Shown here: piece by piece, positions 8,709-15,577 of the stretch
Layout of the letters: the number at the start of each line of letters is the position of its first letter
Position numbering within the stretch: position 1 is the stretch's first letter
Source: a virus
Virus record (IMG/VR): IMGVR_UViG_3300006737_000062
Coordinates: 1 to 41,688 of that record
Reading direction: 5' to 3' (one strand)
DNA: 41,688 bases
The notes under the pieces: generated by a model
What the model was told of the DNA's origin: nothing
The model's input: the letters and a program-made list of their open reading frames with translations, nothing else
Databases searched by the model: none
Made by a program: the position numbers and the translations under genes

Positions 8709-8923
8709 TAAAAAAATATGAGGAGGTATATCGTATAGCACTAGCCAAATTTTCCCCATAGCCCACGCCAAAAACACCAAAGACAGCCCAAAAAAAGCCA
8801 ATGAATAAGCCAAAAATCCTACATATAATAGGATATTCAATCCTTTGTATATCAAAGCTAATAAAATGTTTTGTTTGTGTGTGAGGTAGGGTCTATTTTT
8901 TTCTGATACTATTAATATGTATT

Positions 8924-8940
8924 AAAGTACCCATAGTAGA
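8924..8940 (+). promoter_or_regulatory. Putative phage RNA polymerase promoter (left-end, phiOL-like)
   Basis: AAAGTACCCATAGTAGA, identical in its last eleven bases to the motifs before the RNA polymerase gene and the SSB module. It is 84 bases upstream of a strong terminator and 430 upstream of the first early gene. Position recalls the T7 phiOL/phiOR promoters at genome ends, used for replication. Confidence 0.65.
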
Positions 8941-9020
8941 GATAAGAAGCTAAACACTAGCTATATAGTACAGCATCATTACTCCTTATTAATACAATTA
9001 GTTATCATTACATATACATT

Positions 9021-9060
9021 AAATAGATAGGCTTATAATTATAGGCTTATCTATTTTTTT
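9021..9060 (+). terminator. Rho-independent terminator at the late/early junction
   Basis: AAATAGATA pairs with TATCTATTT, and the inner GGCU/GGCU segments pair through two G-C and two G-U pairs, continuing into UAUAA/UUAUA-type pairing around a small loop. The hairpin is followed by a run of seven to nine T residues. It would stop late transcripts after the lysozyme gene, or attenuate transcripts from the promoter at 8924. Confidence 0.7.
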
Positions 9061-9279: not shown

Positions 9280-9337
9280 TTGTTTGTCTGTAATTATTTA
9301 TTACATTGATAAGAGCAATTAAGCTCGAAACAAACAA
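9280..9337 (+). ncRNA. Hammerhead ribozyme A (type III) with C3U/G8A core pair
   Basis: Stem III is open: TTGTTTG (9280-9286) pairs with CAAACAA (9331-9337), with the U16.1-A15.1 pair at 9287/9330. GTC is at 9286-9288 and cleavage is predicted after C9288. Stem I is TGTAAT (9289-9294)/ATTACA (9300-9305) with a five-base loop. The core is TTGATAA (9306-9312) in place of CTGANGA. Stem II is GAGC/GCTC (9313-9316/9323-9326), then GAAA at 9327-9330. C3 to U and G8 to A change together, preserving the 3-8 base pair. It lies 20 bases upstream of the first early gene. All geometry other than this pair is canonical. Confidence 0.7.
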
Positions 9338-9356
9338 CAACAAGGAAAACAACACA

Positions 9357-9506
9357 ATGACAAAACAACAAGTTGAACAACGACAACATCAACAATGGTT
9401 AAAGCGTCAGGTTAAAATTAAAAAGCCTGATACATCAAAGCATGATTTAAAAGTTGCTGAAATGTATATCAACAACCCATTTTTTAAAAGGGGGTTTTAT
9501 GCTTAA
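9357..9506 (+). CDS. Small basic early protein (49 aa), unknown function
   Basis: Start ATG at 9357 behind AAGGAAAA, in a CAA-rich leader that begins inside hammerhead ribozyme A. The in-frame start at 9306 would lie within the ribozyme and is rejected. The product is rich in Gln, Lys and Arg (TKQQVEQRQHQQWLKRQVK) and ends NNPFFKRGFYA. Small basic early proteins of T7-like phages often target host proteins, but no family is recognisable. The next gene starts inside its last codons. Confidence 0.55.
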   Translation: MTKQQVEQRQHQQWLKRQVKIKKPDTSKHDLKVAEMYINNPFFKRGFYA

Positions 9507-9594
9507 TGCTTTCGCACCTTTTTTAATTATTGGCGGCTGTTTCATTACAGCCTACGCCGCTATTTCTATTATCTTTTTACTAGGGGGCATTTAA
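9499..9594 (+). CDS. Early membrane micro-protein (31 aa)
   Basis: ATG at 9499 overlaps the end of the previous gene by eight bases. The whole product is one hydrophobic segment (APFLIIGGCFITAYAAISII, then FLLGG). It is followed one base later by another membrane gene. Overlap and a GGGG ribosome-binding stretch at 9490-9494 support translation. Possibly modifies the host membrane or excludes superinfection; no direct evidence. Confidence 0.5.
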   Translation: MLNAFAPFLIIGGCFITAYAAISIIFLLGGI

Positions 9595-9595
9595 T

Positions 9596-9766
9596 ATGCT
9601 TAAAGATATAATAGACGCTTTCACAGTTGGGTTATTAATGCCGCTTTTAGTCTTCGCACCGATTACGGCGTTAATCGCTTTCGTTAATAATTACAATGAT
9701 TTAGCCTTTATAAGTTTTTTATTATTTTTAATGGCTCTTATTGTTTGGGTTAAAGGAGAGGCATAA
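9596..9766 (+). CDS. Early membrane micro-protein (56 aa), two hydrophobic segments
   Basis: ATG at 9596, one base after the upstream stop, with a GGGGGC site at 9583-9588. Two predicted membrane helices: about residues 8-26 (AFTVGLLMPLLVFAPITALI) and about 35-50 (LAFISFLLFLMALIVWV). It ends KGEA; an AGGAGAGG site inside its last codons serves the next gene. One of three consecutive tiny membrane proteins; role unknown. Confidence 0.55.
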   Translation: MLKDIIDAFTVGLLMPLLVFAPITALIAFVNNYNDLAFISFLLFLMALIVWVKGEA

Positions 9767-9767
9767 T

Positions 9768-9872
9768 ATGGATATATTAATTTTTCTAGCCGTATCAAAT
9801 ATTATTTGTTTGGGCTTAGGTGCTTTGATTATGTTTTTAAGATGCACCGATAGTAACACTGACGAGCTTTAA
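9768..9872 (+). CDS. Early membrane micro-protein (34 aa) whose 3' end lies in a ribozyme
   Basis: ATG at 9768, one base after the upstream stop. A single hydrophobic helix (ILIFLAVSNIICLGLGALIMF) is followed by a short polar tail ending RCTDSNTDEL. The codons for SNTDEL and the TAA (9870-9872) are the stem I strand, the CTGACGA core and half of stem II of hammerhead ribozyme B. The same bases must therefore satisfy both coding and ribozyme constraints. Predicted cleavage (after 9902) is downstream of the stop, leaving the message whole. Confidence 0.55.
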   Translation: MDILIFLAVSNIICLGLGALIMFLRCTDSNTDEL

Positions 9873-9908
9873 ATAAGCGAAACGCCCTGCAATATGGGCG
9901 TCTGTTAC
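9853..9908 (+). ncRNA. Hammerhead ribozyme B (type I)
   Basis: Open stem I: GTAACA (9853-9858) pairs with TGTTAC (9903-9908). Core CTGACGA at 9859-9865. Stem II GCTT/AAGC (9866-9869/9875-9878) with loop TAAAT. GAAA at 9879-9882. Stem III CGCCC/GGGCG (9883-9887/9896-9900) with an eight-base loop. GTC at 9900-9902, with cleavage predicted after C9902. Every invariant core base is present. It overlaps the last codons of the membrane micro-gene and separates it from the gene at 9945. Confidence 0.9.
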
Positions 9909-9944
9909 ATAGTAACTAAAACAACAACAACAAAAGGACAAACA

Positions 9945-10367
9945 ATGCTAACTATTAAACAAGTTACAAGACTACATGAATTAAATAAAAAAACTAAATC
10001 TTGCGAGGCTTTCACAACTGAAGAAATACATGAAAGAAATGATTTACAGTTTTTACGCAATAAAGAAAATGTAAATATGAGATTGTCAGGCGATAATAAA
10101 TATTATCATGCTAACCAGTGTGCAATGTTTATTCGACATATAGAAAAACATGGTTTCAACGGATACCATGAGGACGACATTGAAAGCGTTTATATAACTA
10201 GCTCACCATATTACGGAGCTAGTGCAAATGCTCGTTTAATTTCAGGCGGTGAGACTCATATAAAAGCGTTTAATTCAAATAAGGAGCTTTTAGGGTTTAT
10301 TATTGGCTACAATTCGGCTGTTTATAATTGCACTAAATCAAAAGCTAAAAAAGGTATTATTAATTAA
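9945..10367 (+). CDS. Hypothetical early protein (140 aa)
   Basis: Start ATG at 9945 behind AAAGGA in a CAA-rich leader. An in-frame ATG at 9894 lies inside stem III of ribozyme B and is rejected. The protein is polar with IKQVTRLHELNKKTKSCEAF, NVNMRLSGDNKYYHANQ and a C-terminal SKAKKGIIN. No signal or membrane segment, no recognised domain. It forms its own transcript unit between ribozymes B and C. Phage-early host-takeover function is a guess from position. Confidence 0.6.
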   Translation: MLTIKQVTRLHELNKKTKSCEAFTTEEIHERNDLQFLRNKENVNMRLSGDNKYYHANQCAMFIRHIEKHGFNGYHEDDIESVYITSSPYYGASANARLISGGETHIKAFNSNKELLGFIIGYNSAVYNCTKSKAKKGIIN

Positions 10368-10373
10368 AAAGCA

Positions 10374-10435
10374 GTAACACTGATGAGCCTTGAAGAGGCG
10401 AAACAGAGCCGCCTTTGTGCGGCTTTGTCTGTTAC
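10374..10435 (+). ncRNA. Hammerhead ribozyme C (type I)
   Basis: Open stem I: GTAACA (10374-10379) with TGTTAC (10430-10435), the same sequence as in ribozyme B. Core CTGATGA at 10380-10386. Stem II GCCT/AGGC (10387-10390/10396-10399) with loop TGAAG. GAAA at 10400-10403. A long stem III, CAGAGCCG (10404-10411) with CGGCTTTG (10420-10427), including one G-U pair. GTC at 10427-10429, cleavage after C10429. Begins six bases after the stop codon of the gene at 9945. All invariant bases present. Confidence 0.92.
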
Positions 10436-10512
10436 AATCTAACATTTTTTAGAATTGCAACGCCAAACAATCTAATTTTTAGGGATAATCTTACCCTAAT
10501 TTTTCTATTTTG

Positions 10513-10595
10513 TGATGACTAGACGGCAATCATTATTTCATAATGTGATGACTAGACGGCAATGCTCAAAATTCCATTTGATGACTAGACGGCAA
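10513..10595. repeat. Three 17-bp direct repeats with exact 33-nt period
   Basis: TGATGACTAGACGGCAA occurs at 10513-10529, 10546-10562 and 10579-10595. The spacers are 16 nt and unrelated. The first two copies agree over 20 bases. A 33-nt period is about three helical turns, so proteins would sit on the same face of the DNA. The array is 31 bases upstream of the gene at 10627 and within the leader released by ribozyme C. It could be an operator, iteron-type origin, or RNA-binding site. Too short and too few for CRISPR. Confidence 0.85.
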
Positions 10596-10626
10596 CAACA
10601 AACAACAACAATAAGGAAAATATATT

Positions 10627-11082
10627 ATGCTTGATGATACTCTATTGGAAATTCCTAAATTTCTAAAAGACCTAGCTATGAAGCCTGATACTATCAAATC
10701 TGAACCTAAGTCTAAAATAGGTGACACCTATATAACTAAAGATGGTTGGGAAATGAAGTATAGCTCAGGCGGCTATTGGATACCAGTTAAGGATACCAAT
10801 GCTGTTAAAACTAATAACATTGAGGAGGTTCGACAATTTATTTTAGAGAAAGTCTCTTATAGAAATCGCACTGCTCCTATGTGCTTATTAAAGAAAAAAC
10901 CTATGCTTAAATGGTTAAGAGAGCAGATGTCTTTTAGAAGACCTGACTTAAATCCTAGCTCTATTAATAGACAGCTTAACAACTTGTTAAAGCTGAGAGC
11001 TTTAGAGATAGCTCAGGAATATAAAACGAAACGATTTGTTATCGAAGGTAAAAACTTTCACGCACATTATAAAAAACTATAA
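10627..11082 (+). CDS. Hypothetical early protein (151 aa), possible winged-helix DNA-binding
   Basis: ATG at 10627 behind TAAGGAAAA. The N-terminal 60 residues are polar with DTYITKDGWEMKYSSGGYWIP. The C-terminal half (EEVRQFILEKVSYRNR, LKKKPMLKWLREQM, NPSSINRQLNNLLKLRALEI, FVIEGKNFHAHY) has the spacing of a helix-turn-helix with a beta wing. The three direct repeats lie just upstream, so autoregulation is possible. The TAA stop (11080-11082) is directly followed by ribozyme D. No family recognised; the fold suggestion is weak. Confidence 0.6.
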   Translation: MLDDTLLEIPKFLKDLAMKPDTIKSEPKSKIGDTYITKDGWEMKYSSGGYWIPVKDTNAVKTNNIEEVRQFILEKVSYRNRTAPMCLLKKKPMLKWLREQMSFRRPDLNPSSINRQLNNLLKLRALEIAQEYKTKRFVIEGKNFHAHYKKL

Positions 11083-11136
11083 GAACGAAACGCCTAGAAA
11101 TAGGCGTCTGTGGATATTGTCCACACTGATGAGTTC
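11083..11136 (+). ncRNA. Hammerhead ribozyme D (type II)
   Basis: Stem II is open: GAAC (11083-11086) pairs with GTTC (11133-11136). GAAA at 11087-11090. Stem III CGCCT/AGGCG (11091-11095/11102-11106) with loop AGAAAT. GTC at 11106-11108, cleavage after C11108. Stem I TGTGGA/TCCACA (11109-11114/11120-11125) with loop TATTG. Core CTGATGA at 11126-11132. It begins at the base after the upstream stop codon. All invariant bases are present; only stem II is short (4 bp). A separate hairpin ACGCA/TGCGT follows at 11148-11161. Confidence 0.88.
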
Positions 11137-11207
11137 GGTACATATTGACGCAGTAGTGCGTTATATGCTTTAATGACTTAAAATTAGTAAAGGAGGTGAA
11201 TTTAATA

Positions 11208-11417
11208 ATGGCAAATAGAAAAAAACTAATAATTAAAAAAAATACACATTGGGTAAACCATGCAAAGCAAGTTGTGGCGTGGATAGCTTACAATGCGTTA
11301 TTCGCACATAATTATTCATATTGGTCAAGCACTACAAGTAAAGTAACTAGCATGGGATTAGGCAGTCAAAAAGGATTTATTGCTAACCCTGTTAACGCAC
11401 CCAATATAACGAGTTAG
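11208..11417 (+). CDS. Hypothetical small basic protein (69 aa)
   Basis: ATG at 11208 with AGGAGG at 11191-11196, a little far (11 bases). A GTG in frame at 11196 overlaps that Shine-Dalgarno and is rejected. The product starts ANRKKLIIKKNTHWVNHAKQ and is rich in aromatic residues and Asn/Ser. No domain recognised. It is the first gene of the transcript that begins after ribozyme D. Its TAG overlaps the ribosome site of the next gene. Confidence 0.55.
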   Translation: MANRKKLIIKKNTHWVNHAKQVVAWIAYNALFAHNYSYWSSTTSKVTSMGLGSQKGFIANPVNAPNITS

Positions 11418-11425
11418 GAGTCAAG

Positions 11426-11551
11426 ATGGATTTTTATTTATTCAGCATTTATGTTGAAAAATATACGAAGTGGAGTTCTTTTAAAACTATCACTAATAAA
11501 TACGAGTTCATTGTTGATTTTGGCTATTGGAGAATATATTTGACCAATTAG
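11426..11551 (+). CDS. Hypothetical micro-protein (41 aa)
   Basis: ATG at 11426 behind AGGAGTC. The product is rich in aromatic residues (MDFYLFSIYVEKYTKWSSF, then YEFIVDFGYWRIYLTN). Not recognised. A minus-strand frame covers the same bases, but the good ribosome site and the direction of all neighbours favour this one. The 84 bases up to the next gene hold no other feature I can see. Confidence 0.45.
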   Translation: MDFYLFSIYVEKYTKWSSFKTITNKYEFIVDFGYWRIYLTN

Positions 11552-11635: not shown

Positions 11636-11977
11636 ATGATGACTAAGAAAGGACTAAACTTACTCAAGATAATTGAAGAAATGCGAAAATTTGACCCTCT
11701 ACTTGAGAGCCAAGCTATCGCTATTTTTTTTGTTGTGTGTCTTGATGGAGGAGATGACGGAATATCTATGCAGGATATTTCTGAGAAGTTAGACCTAGCT
11801 CAATCGACTGTTAGTAGGAACGTATTTAAACTATCATTTACTAATAGGCACAGAGAAAGGGGCATAGATTTATTAGAGGCGTTTGAAGACCCTATGGAAC
11901 GAAGACGTAAGCTAGTAAAATTAACGGCTAAAGGTAGACGAGTGTATGATACACTGTCTGATTTAGTTAAAAAATAG
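11636..11977 (+). CDS. Winged helix-turn-helix regulator (MarR-like)
   Basis: 113 residues. The core GISMQDISEKLDLAQSTVSR NVFKL (about residues 43-68) is a helix-turn-helix of MarR type: the recognition helix has LAQSTVSRNV. It is followed by a wing with DPMERRRKLVKLTAKGRRVY, the R..V.LT..G...Y pattern that ends MarR wings. It lies directly upstream of the integrase, whose frame opens at the base after its stop, so a lysogeny or integrase regulator is likely. It could bind the inverted repeat at 9078 or the 17-bp repeats, but this is not shown. Start at one of two adjacent ATGs (11636 or 11639). Confidence 0.78.
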   Translation: MMTKKGLNLLKIIEEMRKFDPLLESQAIAIFFVVCLDGGDDGISMQDISEKLDLAQSTVSRNVFKLSFTNRHRERGIDLLEAFEDPMERRRKLVKLTAKGRRVYDTLSDLVKK

Positions 11978-11989
11978 AAGGAGGATATT

Positions 11990-12868
11990 ATTAAAAATCC
12001 AAAACTACTAACTGAAATACGCCGTAAACTTGACCTAAAGAATTGGGAAAAGTTACAGTCACGCAGAGCCGAGAAAATTATAGAATTACTTGGCAATGGT
12101 ATGTTAGTGACTGAGGTGAATGAGACTCATGTCGAGCATTTAGTGAGTACGCTTGAAGAGCGAGGGTTGAGCGGTAGCACAATCAATCGTTACTTGGCGG
12201 CATTATCTAAAATGCTCTCTTACGCACATAAGAGACACGCAATCTATCATATGGAGCGTATGCCTTTTATTGAGTGGCATGAGGAGTCTGATGGACGAGA
12301 CCGCTATCTAATGCCTGAAGAGGAGCAAGAGATAATTAGTACACTTACTAATTGGGGTGATACTGATTATTTAGACTTGTATCTCTTCTTAGTAGATACT
12401 GGTATGAGACTTAACGAGGCTTTATCTTTTAAGAAGTCTATGGTTAATACTGATGTTAATAATAACATGATAGTATTATTACCTGCCTCTATTACCAAGA
12501 ATGGTCATAAGAGGGGAGTACCATTGACAGAAAGAGCTTCAGGAATAGTCTCACGATTACTGGCTAATTGCGAAAGTAATGACAAAGTTTTTAGTCACCT
12601 GAAATATTGGAGATGTGAAAACTTATGGATTAAACTTCGTAAGGCTATGGGGTTACAAGATGACAAGGACTTTGTGATACATTGTCTGAGACACACTTGT
12701 GCCACTAGATTAGCACAGTCAGGTAAAATCGAATTACACCTTGTAGGTCAAATGTTAGGGCATAGGTCTTGGCAGATGATACAACGCTATGCACATTTAG
12801 TGCCTAGTAACTTAATGGGTGCAATTAACGTCCTGAATACACATAATAAGCAATCCGCAAGTGGATAG
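11990..12868 (+). CDS. int: Tyrosine integrase, probably initiated at AUU
   Basis: The ATG at 12101 has no ribosome site. The frame is open back to 11978 and continues with integrase-like helix sequence (KNPKLLTEIRRKLDLKNW, RRAEKIIELLGNG) up to an ATT at 11990, five bases after AAGGAGG (11978-11984). From there the protein is 292 aa, a usual length. Numbered from 11990, catalytic residues are R140 (TGMRLNEAL), K170 (ITKNGHKRG), H231 and R234 (HCLRHTCAT), H258 (LGHRSW) and the nucleophile Y267 (QRYAHL). It recombines phage and host att sites. The att core is about 90 bases downstream. Confidence 0.88.
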   Translation: MKNPKLLTEIRRKLDLKNWEKLQSRRAEKIIELLGNGMLVTEVNETHVEHLVSTLEERGLSGSTINRYLAALSKMLSYAHKRHAIYHMERMPFIEWHEESDGRDRYLMPEEEQEIISTLTNWGDTDYLDLYLFLVDTGMRLNEALSFKKSMVNTDVNNNMIVLLPASITKNGHKRGVPLTERASGIVSRLLANCESNDKVFSHLKYWRCENLWIKLRKAMGLQDDKDFVIHCLRHTCATRLAQSGKIELHLVGQMLGHRSWQMIQRYAHLVPSNLMGAINVLNTHNKQSASG

Positions 12869-12936: not shown

Positions 12937-12954
12937 GGGAAAAATTAATTCATA

Positions 12955-12993
12955 GCCTCGTGGTGGAATGGTAGACACAAAGGACTTAAAATC
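12955..12993 (+). other. attP: attP candidate: 5' half of a tRNA-Leu(UAA) gene
   Basis: The segment from GCCTCG through GTGGAATGGTAGACAC to GGACTTAAAATCC aligns with the acceptor, D-arm and anticodon arm of bacterial tRNA-Leu(UAA), including anticodon TAA at about 12986. After TCCT the similarity ends: there is no variable arm or T-arm, and base 27 would mispair with 43. It therefore is not a functional tRNA but a tRNA-derived core. It lies directly after the integrase. Published pelagiphages are known to integrate into tRNA genes, which supports attP. Confidence 0.75.
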
Positions 12994-13072
12994 CTATTGC
13001 ACCAATCCTCAAGTAATTAGCTAGATTAAAATTTCCCCAAAAAGTAGTATATAGCCACTATCCGCTCCTATT

Positions 13073-13126: not shown

Positions 13127-15577
13127 TTGACAACAACTAAACTTTTAGAAGTAGTACCTAATTATAATGACGAATTATCTCACGAAAAAGAGATGAAATC
13201 ACTTGGTCAACAACGCACCAATAAGCGTTTAAATTCCCATATACAAAGAGAAGAAGAGTCTGTGACTAGCTATGGTAAAGTTATGGTAGCCACAACAATC
13301 AGACCTTTAGCAGATGCCATTGAACAATATTTTAAAACTTGTCACCATGCTACTATTGGTCAGCCACCTATTGCCTATGTAAAGATGTCAAATATTTCAC
13401 CTGACATTTTAGCCTTAATTACAGGTAAACACATTATCAATACAATTACACAATCAAAACCATTAACCGCTACGAGTATATCACTAGGCGGTAAAGTTGA
13501 GACTGAGGAAGCCTTAAAGAATTTTCAGGCGTTAAATCCTGAGCTATACGAGACAGTAAAACAAGACCTAGACAAAAGGTCATACAATTACGGATACAAG
13601 AGACGTAAACTAAAAGAAAGTGCTAAAAGAGGTGAGGTTCATTGGGAAGAGTGGACTACTCCTCAAAAACTACATGTAGGATTAAGACTAATTGAGCTTA
13701 TGATACAAGCTACAGGAATGATTGAAATAGGTACAGAGACTATCAATCGTAAGAAGACTAAGATTATTAAACAGACTCAGAAAACTAGAGAGTGGATTAA
13801 AAATAGAAACGGCTTTAATGAGCTTTTAAATCCTGAGTATCTTCCAACTGTAATGACACCTAAACAATGGACTTCTCCTGAAGGTGGAGGTTATTGGACT
13901 AAAGAGCTTCCTGAGCTAGACTTGGTTAAACAAAAAAATAAGATGTTTAAAAAAGAGCTTGAGAATTTTGAGATGCCTGAAGTTTATAGTGCAGTTAACA
14001 ACATGCAGAATACACCATTTAAAATTAACAATTATATTTTAGGTGTATTGCAGGAAGCATGGGACAGGGGTTTAGCTGTTGGCGGTCTTCCTCCAAGTGA
14101 GAATATAGATGTACCTAACAAGCCTACTGACATTGATACGAATGAAGTGGCTCGTAAAGCATGGAAGAAAGAAGCTGTAATAGCTCATACTGAAAATGCT
14201 AGAATGTTTAGTAAGAGACTACTGTATGCTAAAATAATTTGGTCTGCACAAAAATTTAAAGACTACGAGTCTATTTACTTTCCTCTACAAATGGATTTCA
14301 GAGGAAGAGTGTATTGTGTACCTGCGTTTTTAAACTATCAGAGCATTGAAGGTGCTAAGGCTTTATTACAATTCTCTAATGGTAAAGAAATAACAGAAGA
14401 GAATAATGGTGCGTTTTGGTTAGCCGTACATGGAGCTAACATGTGGGGTGAGGATAAAATTACTCTTGAGGAACGAGTTAAGTGGGTACATGAAAACGAA
14501 GACATGTTTTTTAAATGTGCTGATGACCCATTTACAAATAGAGAGTGGGAACAAGCCTCAAATCCTTTCATGGCTTTAGCGTGGTGTGAGGAGTGGTGGC
14601 AGTTTAAACAACAAGGCTACGGATATGTGTCTAACTTACCAGTATCTATTGATGGCTCTTGTAATGGTCTACAGCTTTATTCTTTAATGTTAAAAGATGA
14701 ACAAGCAGGTAAGCTAGTTAATGTAGTGCCGTCAGATAAGCCTCAAGACATTTATCAAATAGTAGCGGATAATGTTAATGAGAAATTAAAAGAAGACGCA
14801 AGAGAAGGGAAGCCTTACGCACAGCAGTGGTTAGACTATGGCGTTAAACGTAGCACAACTAAAAGAAGTATTATGACAATTTGTTATGGTTCAACAAGGT
14901 ACTCATGCACAGACTTTGTTGTTGAAGACTTAACAAAAAGAAAAGATAAAGGAGAAGACCACCCTTTTGATATTGATGTATTTAGACCTGCTTCTTATTT
15001 AGCAGGTGTAATATGGGATAGCATTGGAGATAACTTAACCTCTGCAAGAATAGGAATGGATTATCTACAAAGCATAGCGAGGATTGTTTCAAAAGAACAA
15101 TTACCTATTCACTGGTTAACACCTATAGGATTTCCAGTATATCAATCATATCCTGAGATGAAGTCTAAAAGAGTTAAGGCAATGTTAATGGGTGAGGTAA
15201 TTAAACCTCGTATTAATACTGAAACAGATAAGACAGACAGGCTTAGAATGTCTAATGCAATAGCACCTAATGTTATTCATTCAATAGACTCTGCTTGTCT
15301 TTTAAAAACTGTAAACTTAGCCTATGAAAATGGGGTAAGAAATTTTGCAAATGTGCATGATAGTTTTGGAACAACGGCGGCAGATGTAGAGACTTTAATT
15401 ACATGTTTAAAAGAGTCATTCATCAATGTGTTTACACAAACAAACGTCCTCCAAGATTTTAGAGATGATGTAGAAGCTCAGTTACCTGAGAAGTTACGTC
15501 ATAAATTACCGCAAGTGCCTCAGCAGGGTAGTTTGGAAATAGAAAATCTCAGACAATGTGACTTTTTCTTTGCCTAA
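13127..15577 (+). CDS. rpo: T7-like single-subunit RNA polymerase (TTG start)
   Basis: 816 residues; starts at TTG 13127, six bases after AAGGAG. Palm motif A is SIDGSCNGLQLYS (Asp at about residue 509), the fingers motif B KRSTTKRSIMTICYGS follows at about 575, and motif C is NVHDSFGTT (Asp at about 745). MDFRGRVYCVP (about residue 388) is the conserved thumb/palm entry. NAIAPNVIHSIDSA precedes motif C, and the C terminus ends CDFFFA, like the FAFA foot of T7 polymerase. It transcribes middle and late genes from phage promoters. Length is a little less than T7 (883 aa), mostly in the N-terminal domain. Confidence 0.97.
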   Translation: MTTTKLLEVVPNYNDELSHEKEMKSLGQQRTNKRLNSHIQREEESVTSYGKVMVATTIRPLADAIEQYFKTCHHATIGQPPIAYVKMSNISPDILALITGKHIINTITQSKPLTATSISLGGKVETEEALKNFQALNPELYETVKQDLDKRSYNYGYKRRKLKESAKRGEVHWEEWTTPQKLHVGLRLIELMIQATGMIEIGTETINRKKTKIIKQTQKTREWIKNRNGFNELLNPEYLPTVMTPKQWTSPEGGGYWTKELPELDLVKQKNKMFKKELENFEMPEVYSAVNNMQNTPFKINNYILGVLQEAWDRGLAVGGLPPSENIDVPNKPTDIDTNEVARKAWKKEAVIAHTENARMFSKRLLYAKIIWSAQKFKDYESIYFPLQMDFRGRVYCVPAFLNYQSIEGAKALLQFSNGKEITEENNGAFWLAVHGANMWGEDKITLEERVKWVHENEDMFFKCADDPFTNREWEQASNPFMALAWCEEWWQFKQQGYGYVSNLPVSIDGSCNGLQLYSLMLKDEQAGKLVNVVPSDKPQDIYQIVADNVNEKLKEDAREGKPYAQQWLDYGVKRSTTKRSIMTICYGSTRYSCTDFVVEDLTKRKDKGEDHPFDIDVFRPASYLAGVIWDSIGDNLTSARIGMDYLQSIARIVSKEQLPIHWLTPIGFPVYQSYPEMKSKRVKAMLMGEVIKPRINTETDKTDRLRMSNAIAPNVIHSIDSACLLKTVNLAYENGVRNFANVHDSFGTTAADVETLITCLKESFINVFTQTNVLQDFRDDVEAQLPEKLRHKLPQVPQQGSLEIENLRQCDFFFA

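Follow-up and report, generated by a model that had tools for sequence, protein, structure and literature searches.

Hammerhead ribozymes between the early genes of a T7-like pelagiphage and its relatives

The early genes of the virus analysed here raise the question of what four hammerhead-like sequences are doing between cistrons, and whether they could cut the transcript in which they lie. The window, i.e., the whole stretch of DNA that was analysed, is the 41,688-base virus record IMGVR_UViG_3300006737_000062. Its single-subunit phage RNA polymerase (RNAP), encoded on the + strand at 13127..15577, matches phrog_414 and shares 77% amino acid identity with the enzyme of Pelagibacter phage HTVC109P and 62.5% with that of HTVC019P. 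We assign the window to the T7-like pelagiphages of the HTVC019P type; the phage is probably temperate.

The early region is bounded by the end of the lysozyme gene (8708) and the RNAP gene, and it is multicistronic, with all the genes described below on the + strand. ORF1 (9357..9506; 49 aa), the first cistron past the first hammerhead (HHR1), is preceded by a (CAA)n leader and an AAGGA site and gave no match in the family search. ORF2 (9499..9594; 31 aa) shares 94% identity with an ORF of the related locus L002, and ORF3 (9596..9766; 56 aa) and ORF6 (10627..11082; 151 aa) are further early ORFs. ORF4 (9768..9872; 34 aa) runs into the second hammerhead (HHR2). ORF5 (9945..10367; 140 aa) is found with 97% identity in L002 and L003, and another gene takes its place in L082. 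ORF7 and ORF8 (11208..11551) open the last unit, and after them come genes encoding a winged-helix (MarR-like) regulator (11636..11977; phrog_9665, E 2e-29), a tyrosine integrase (12101..12868; PF00589, E 2e-23) and the RNAP. In the infection transcriptome of HTVC022P, the genes are expressed in adjacent early, middle and late blocks, and those of the RNAP and MarR are strongly expressed early (PMC12753301).

Several other elements were observed in this region. The C-terminal part of ORF6 (about 45-95 aa) is shared with early proteins of related phages that otherwise differ, and it resembles a shuffled domain. The leader between HHR3 and ORF6 carries three direct repeats of GTGATGACTAGACGGCAA with 33-bp spacing (10510-10595); ACTAGACGG is clustered in related phages, and it is also found within the hammerhead stem III of HTVC019P, 022P, 304P and 201P. 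These repeats are possibly a binding site for a regulator or an RNA-binding protein. Past the integrase gene, positions 12954-12996 resemble the 5' part of a tRNA-Leu(UAA), probably the attP core; the tRNA-like sequence of L003 and L082 scores above the Rfam tRNA threshold, and another locus (L007) has a complete tRNA-Cys upstream of the RNAP gene. Phage Ran EXVC014P (L255), a relative with a hammerhead, has ArdA anti-restriction genes in its early region.

The original prediction, made by reading the sequence, placed four hammerheads of types III, I, I and II in the early operon, with cuts after 9288, 9902, 10429 and 11108, and all of this was confirmed by a structural descriptor and by covariance models. 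HHR1 (9280..9336; type III), HHR2 (9853..9908; type I), HHR3 (10374..10435; type I) and HHR4 (11083..11136; type II) all lie on the + strand. A descriptor comprising the core and three stems found exactly these four in the window and nothing further when both strands were scanned, the - strand giving no hammerhead. The number expected by chance per 41.7-kb strand is about 0.001-0.004 for the canonical core and 0.002-0.035 when a U3-A8 pair is allowed. The three helices are arranged around the core in the circular permutations III, I, I and II in all four copies. HHR2, HHR3 and HHR4 have the canonical core (C3UGANGA9 / G12AAA15.1 / NUH17) with GUC, and HHR1 carries the paired change that had been noted in it, U3-A8 replacing C3-G8. 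Minimum free energy (MFE) folding returned the expected three-way junction for HHR1, HHR2 and HHR3, and for HHR4 a competing 3' hairpin in place of the 4-bp stem II. As a possible tertiary contact of the loop I-loop II or pseudoknot kind, a candidate GGUA/UAUU pairing was seen by eye in HHR4, which is not obviously kept in relatives.

The four copies may be related to one another. Over 32 nt, the similarity of HHR2 to HHR3 is 84%, HHR2 and HHR4 have their stem III sequence in common, and common descent by permutation is plausible from these resemblances. The shared stem I formula that had been put forward (UGUNNN/NNNACA) holds inside the window but not in relatives, where what is conserved is a stem I of 6 bp and a stem II of 4 bp.

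For an independent assessment, we used three covariance models, one per type, trained on other phages only, from which the window and its near relatives had been excluded. They matched HHR3 (10372-10437, E 6e-19), HHR2 (9851-9910, E 3e-17), HHR4 (11081-11142, E 3e-16) and, despite its U3-A8 core, HHR1 (9280-9336, E 8e-14). These purpose-built models thus recover all four copies, but the Rfam models missed them or produced only sub-threshold scores: the best in the window was that of RF03152 for HHR3 (28.8 bits, gathering score 56.3), and RF00163 gave 23.9 bits for HHR2 (gathering score 34). At gathering scores, Rfam reported no hammerhead in the window nor in nine related loci with canonical arrays, and thus Rfam-based annotation misses the array. 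The gathering score is an annotation threshold and not a defining chemical feature, and the low scores reflect the narrowness of the Rfam models. RF00163, RF00008, RF02276 and RF03152 describe the same core and three-stem junction, and they match the copies or their relatives weakly.

Exchanges of the hammerhead core pair 3-8 can be tolerated. The U3-A8 core (UUGAUAA) is also present in the related loci L002, L003, L082 and L124, i.e., in five phages including the window. Among them, stem II changes from GAGC/GCUC to GAAC/GUUC, and stem I from UGUAAU/AUUACA to UGCAAU/AUUGCA and UGCAUU/AAUGCA, all of them compensatory changes. With stems that vary in a compensatory manner among the phages that share this core, it looks like a functional variant rather than a product of decay. 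We found no paper on the activity of a U3-A8 hammerhead in the open-access literature.

If the elements act as RNA, their stems should be kept in related phages, and they are: the stems are maintained by compensatory change. Between one and six hammerheads occupy the corresponding region in IMG/VR relatives and in cultured phages, HTVC019P and HTVC022P among them, and every stem shows compensatory changes. Of the stem cells in the type I alignment, 99% are paired, and 15 of 18 pairs have changed on both sides, a covariation reached in none of 500 shuffles; in the type III alignment, the figures are 97.5% and 12 of 17. For both types, pairing and covariation are far above shuffled and slid controls. 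The members were picked by a descriptor that demands some of the stem pairs, and the pairs it does not demand (stem I positions 5-6 and stem II position 4) are 100% paired. The stems end sharply, stem I at 6 bp and stem II at 4 bp. When the search was made with the core only, a 4-bp stem II was found in 58 of 123 distinct sequences on the + strand, but in neither of the 2 on the - strand and in none of the 34 from random sequence.

The position and the strand of the hammerheads are equally constrained. In 39 loci anchored on the RNAP gene, 87 hammerheads lie upstream of this gene in 185 kb, all on the coding strand. The 342 kb downstream of it contain none, and neither does the opposite strand. 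When whole genomes of cultured pelagiphages were searched, every strong match fell in the interval from the end of the lysozyme gene to the RNAP gene. HTVC031P has four hammerheads, HTVC109P and HTVC168P at least three each, and HTVC019P two; a single one was found in the examined stretches of HTVC022P and of HTVC131P. That of HTVC022P is of type I and lies between gp07 and the MarR gene, its predicted cut following position 2353 of MH598798. The gene map of the window upstream of the RNAP gene likewise supports the proposed placement in an early operon at cistron boundaries. The array is documented in its sequence, structure, covariation, position, strand and conservation. Whole-genome searches detected no hammerhead in HTVC105P, HTVC134P, HTVC200P and the roseophage CRP-171. 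As three sister phages lack a detectable hammerhead and a single copy is all that others carry, this lifestyle does not require the array.

Some further observations were made during these searches. In HTVC109P (L130), the annotated starts of gp03 and gp05 fall within hammerheads (at 589 and 1121), and the true starts are probably further downstream. A SAR11 prophage copy was sought by means of the RNAP gene, and the only match was a phage contig in a Neomarinimicrobiota MAG (L141); this contig, which has a hammerhead array, belongs to a T7-like pelagiphage relative and was likely mis-binned. A generic scan revealed further tandem hammerheads in unrelated phage contigs, and three of higher G+C (L149, L158 and L176) each carry between four and six type I hammerheads in tandem, all on the same strand.

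Taken together, we consider it probable that the four elements are genuine hammerheads that cut the polycistronic early transcript of this T7-like pelagiphage during transcription. RNase III makes cuts at five sites in the early precursor of T7, which is about 7,000 nt long (PMC4858673). In the pelagiphage, co-transcriptional self-cleavage would split the early transcript into mRNAs, doing the job of RNase III without a host enzyme. HHR1, of type III, would remove the leader, and the first mRNA would keep both HHR1 hairpins at its 5' end; the hairpins of HHR2 and HHR3, of type I, would stay at the 3' end of the upstream mRNA; and HHR4, of type II, would leave one hairpin on each side of the cut. 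Every cut would produce a 5'-OH and a 2',3'-cyclic phosphate, and the outcome would be short mRNAs, each starting near its own ribosome-binding site. The predicted unit lengths of 614, 527 and 679 nt were correct. We infer from the array that cleavage occurs in vivo, that it sets transcript boundaries and that it affects stability and translation; the originally proposed resistance of the ends to decay and separate control of each cistron would be possible consequences.

The leader to be removed may be defined by a phage promoter. A T7-type promoter-like site, TATTAAAGTACCCATAGTAGAGA, lies upstream of the array on the + strand at 8920..8942, as judged by the recurrence of its motif. The motif, TTAAAGTNCCCATAGTAGA, has three copies in the window versus 0.1 expected, at 8920 (before the array), 13069 (before the polymerase) and 15613 (after it); relatives keep both polymerase-flanking sites, and several also have one upstream of the first hammerhead. 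This motif may be the promoter of the phage polymerase and, if so, HHR1 would remove a leader of about 350 nt from transcripts starting at 8920. A strong 16-bp hairpin followed by a U tract, terminator-like, is found at 9021-9056, between the 8920 site and HHR1. A scan for sigma-70 promoters was uninformative (15 found versus 19.8 expected). We also considered a (CAA)n leader past each ribozyme as a general rule, which was rejected: it follows three of the four hammerheads in the window and 25 of the 122 in the set that have a recognisable start codon downstream, and thus it is a local trait.

The sister phages HTVC105P, HTVC134P and HTVC200P, in which no hammerhead is detectable, argue against early-transcript processing as the role of the array, as do the competing fold of HHR4 and the stop codon in loop II of HHR2, which perhaps exposes this copy to blocking by translating ribosomes. 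We looked for signs that an RNase III-like process takes over where hammerheads are missing, and the counts of long hairpins did not tell phages with hammerheads from those without, nor either group from shuffles. Striking hairpins occur at junctions of HTVC105P, and they carry no weight because these counts give no discrimination.

The stop codons near the ribozymes allow another reading, in which cleavage is regulated, for instance by ribosomes terminating in or beside a ribozyme, so that the array is a timing device and not a set of constitutive scissors. It had been claimed that a stop codon lies at each cut site; stops are indeed located just before or inside ribozymes (9870-9872, 10365-10367 and 11080-11082), but not at the cut sites. 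The stop within HHR2, those directly before HHR3 and HHR4, and the alternative fold of HHR4 would fit regulation. However, tight gene packing alone would place stops there, and no ligand-binding domain was seen, so we judge regulated cleavage to be improbable. It is far less credible still that the segments freed by flanking ribozymes become circularised or religated, yielding circular or spliced early RNAs. Hammerhead products do bear the ends needed for ligation, and the segments between ribozymes measure 527-679 nt, but the mixed topologies found here provide no matching ends for a simple circle, and Perreault et al., who looked for such RNAs from bacterial arrays, found none (PMC3088659).

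The order of the types along the arrays bears on what the cuts are for. Every one of the 38 arrays that combine type III with I or II (32 of them distinct by type and spacing) has type III in the 5'-most position, and shuffling gave a mean of 12 and a maximum of 22 in 2000 trials; since the arrays are related, these are not 38 independent events. The order is mechanistically sensible, because the hairpins of type III stay with the product downstream of the cut, and those of type I with the product upstream of it. This raises the possibility, to which we give a little less than an even chance, that the ribozymes mainly set mRNA ends for stability, with 5'-OH groups and terminal hairpins slowing decay, and that the separation of cistrons is a by-product. 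The dependence of type on position, III first and I or II later, is what would be expected if the product that keeps the hairpin matters. Against this, type I gives the downstream product no 5' hairpin, and the shared ancestry of the arrays means that the order was possibly inherited and not repeatedly selected.

Comparison of the window with L002, L003 and L082, whose polymerases are 98% identical, showed that units of gene plus ribozyme are gained, lost or swapped whole. A type III hammerhead with an 81-aa gene and a 59-aa gene with a type II hammerhead are present in some and absent in others, and in one case two ribozymes were kept while the gene between them was replaced. Module borders are marked by the ribozymes. 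Such swapping of genes as cassettes would also be compatible with motifs that are inactive remnants, or recombination boundaries at the DNA level, devoid of RNA function. We find this scarcely believable in view of the compensatory changes in all stems, the invariant core nucleotides and the strict bias of strand and position, given that DNA recombination sites need neither covariation nor a single strand. Returning to cleavage of the early transcript, we tentatively suggest, as a rather speculative extension, that in this abundant group of ocean phages a self-contained ribozyme system replaces the RNase III step of T7, with the type at each junction selected according to which product keeps the protective hairpins (III for 5' ends, I or II for 3' ends); gene and ribozyme cassettes would be swappable because each carries its own processing site.

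That tandem hammerheads exist in phages is already known, and the original suggestion that such an operon array may be new was overstated. Perreault et al. described in 2011 clustered hammerheads in prophages and proposed that they process long phage RNAs; three arrays cleaved in vitro and one, from A. tumefaciens, in E. coli, and the A. tumefaciens array also flanks ardA (PMC3088659). Like the window array, these clusters combine hammerheads of all three types on a single strand, around individual genes or small gene blocks, but they are scattered and their genes inconstant, whereas the array described here is lineage-wide in a T7-like early region, with type III first and sub-threshold Rfam scores. 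In the haloviruses HF1 and HF2, a mapped 5' end of an early transcript lies within 3 nt of the hammerhead cut site (PMC3088659); there too the ribozyme (HHphage) is just upstream of an early gene, but it is single, has core insertions and belongs to an archaeal virus. The RNase III sites of T7 (PMC4858673) are alike in that a polycistronic early transcript is cut several times, upstream of the RNAP gene and around it, and differ in that a host protein enzyme acts on hairpins, whereas here the RNA would cut itself. We found no report of hammerheads in pelagiphages in open-access papers, and with respect to that literature, the occurrence of a T7-like early array across the lineage, its III-first order, the conservation of the U3-A8 variant and the blindness of Rfam to these elements appear to be new.

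Annotation based on Rfam overlooks hammerheads in this pelagiphage lineage, where they form a set with fixed position, strand and topology order. The arrays are also natural designs for RNA-insulated multi-gene constructs. Directional RNA-seq data of HTCC1062 infected with HTVC022P are public (PRJNA1253180; PMC12753301). With this large natural aligned set, and with cultured phages of the most abundant ocean bacteria, the role of bacterial and phage hammerheads becomes testable.
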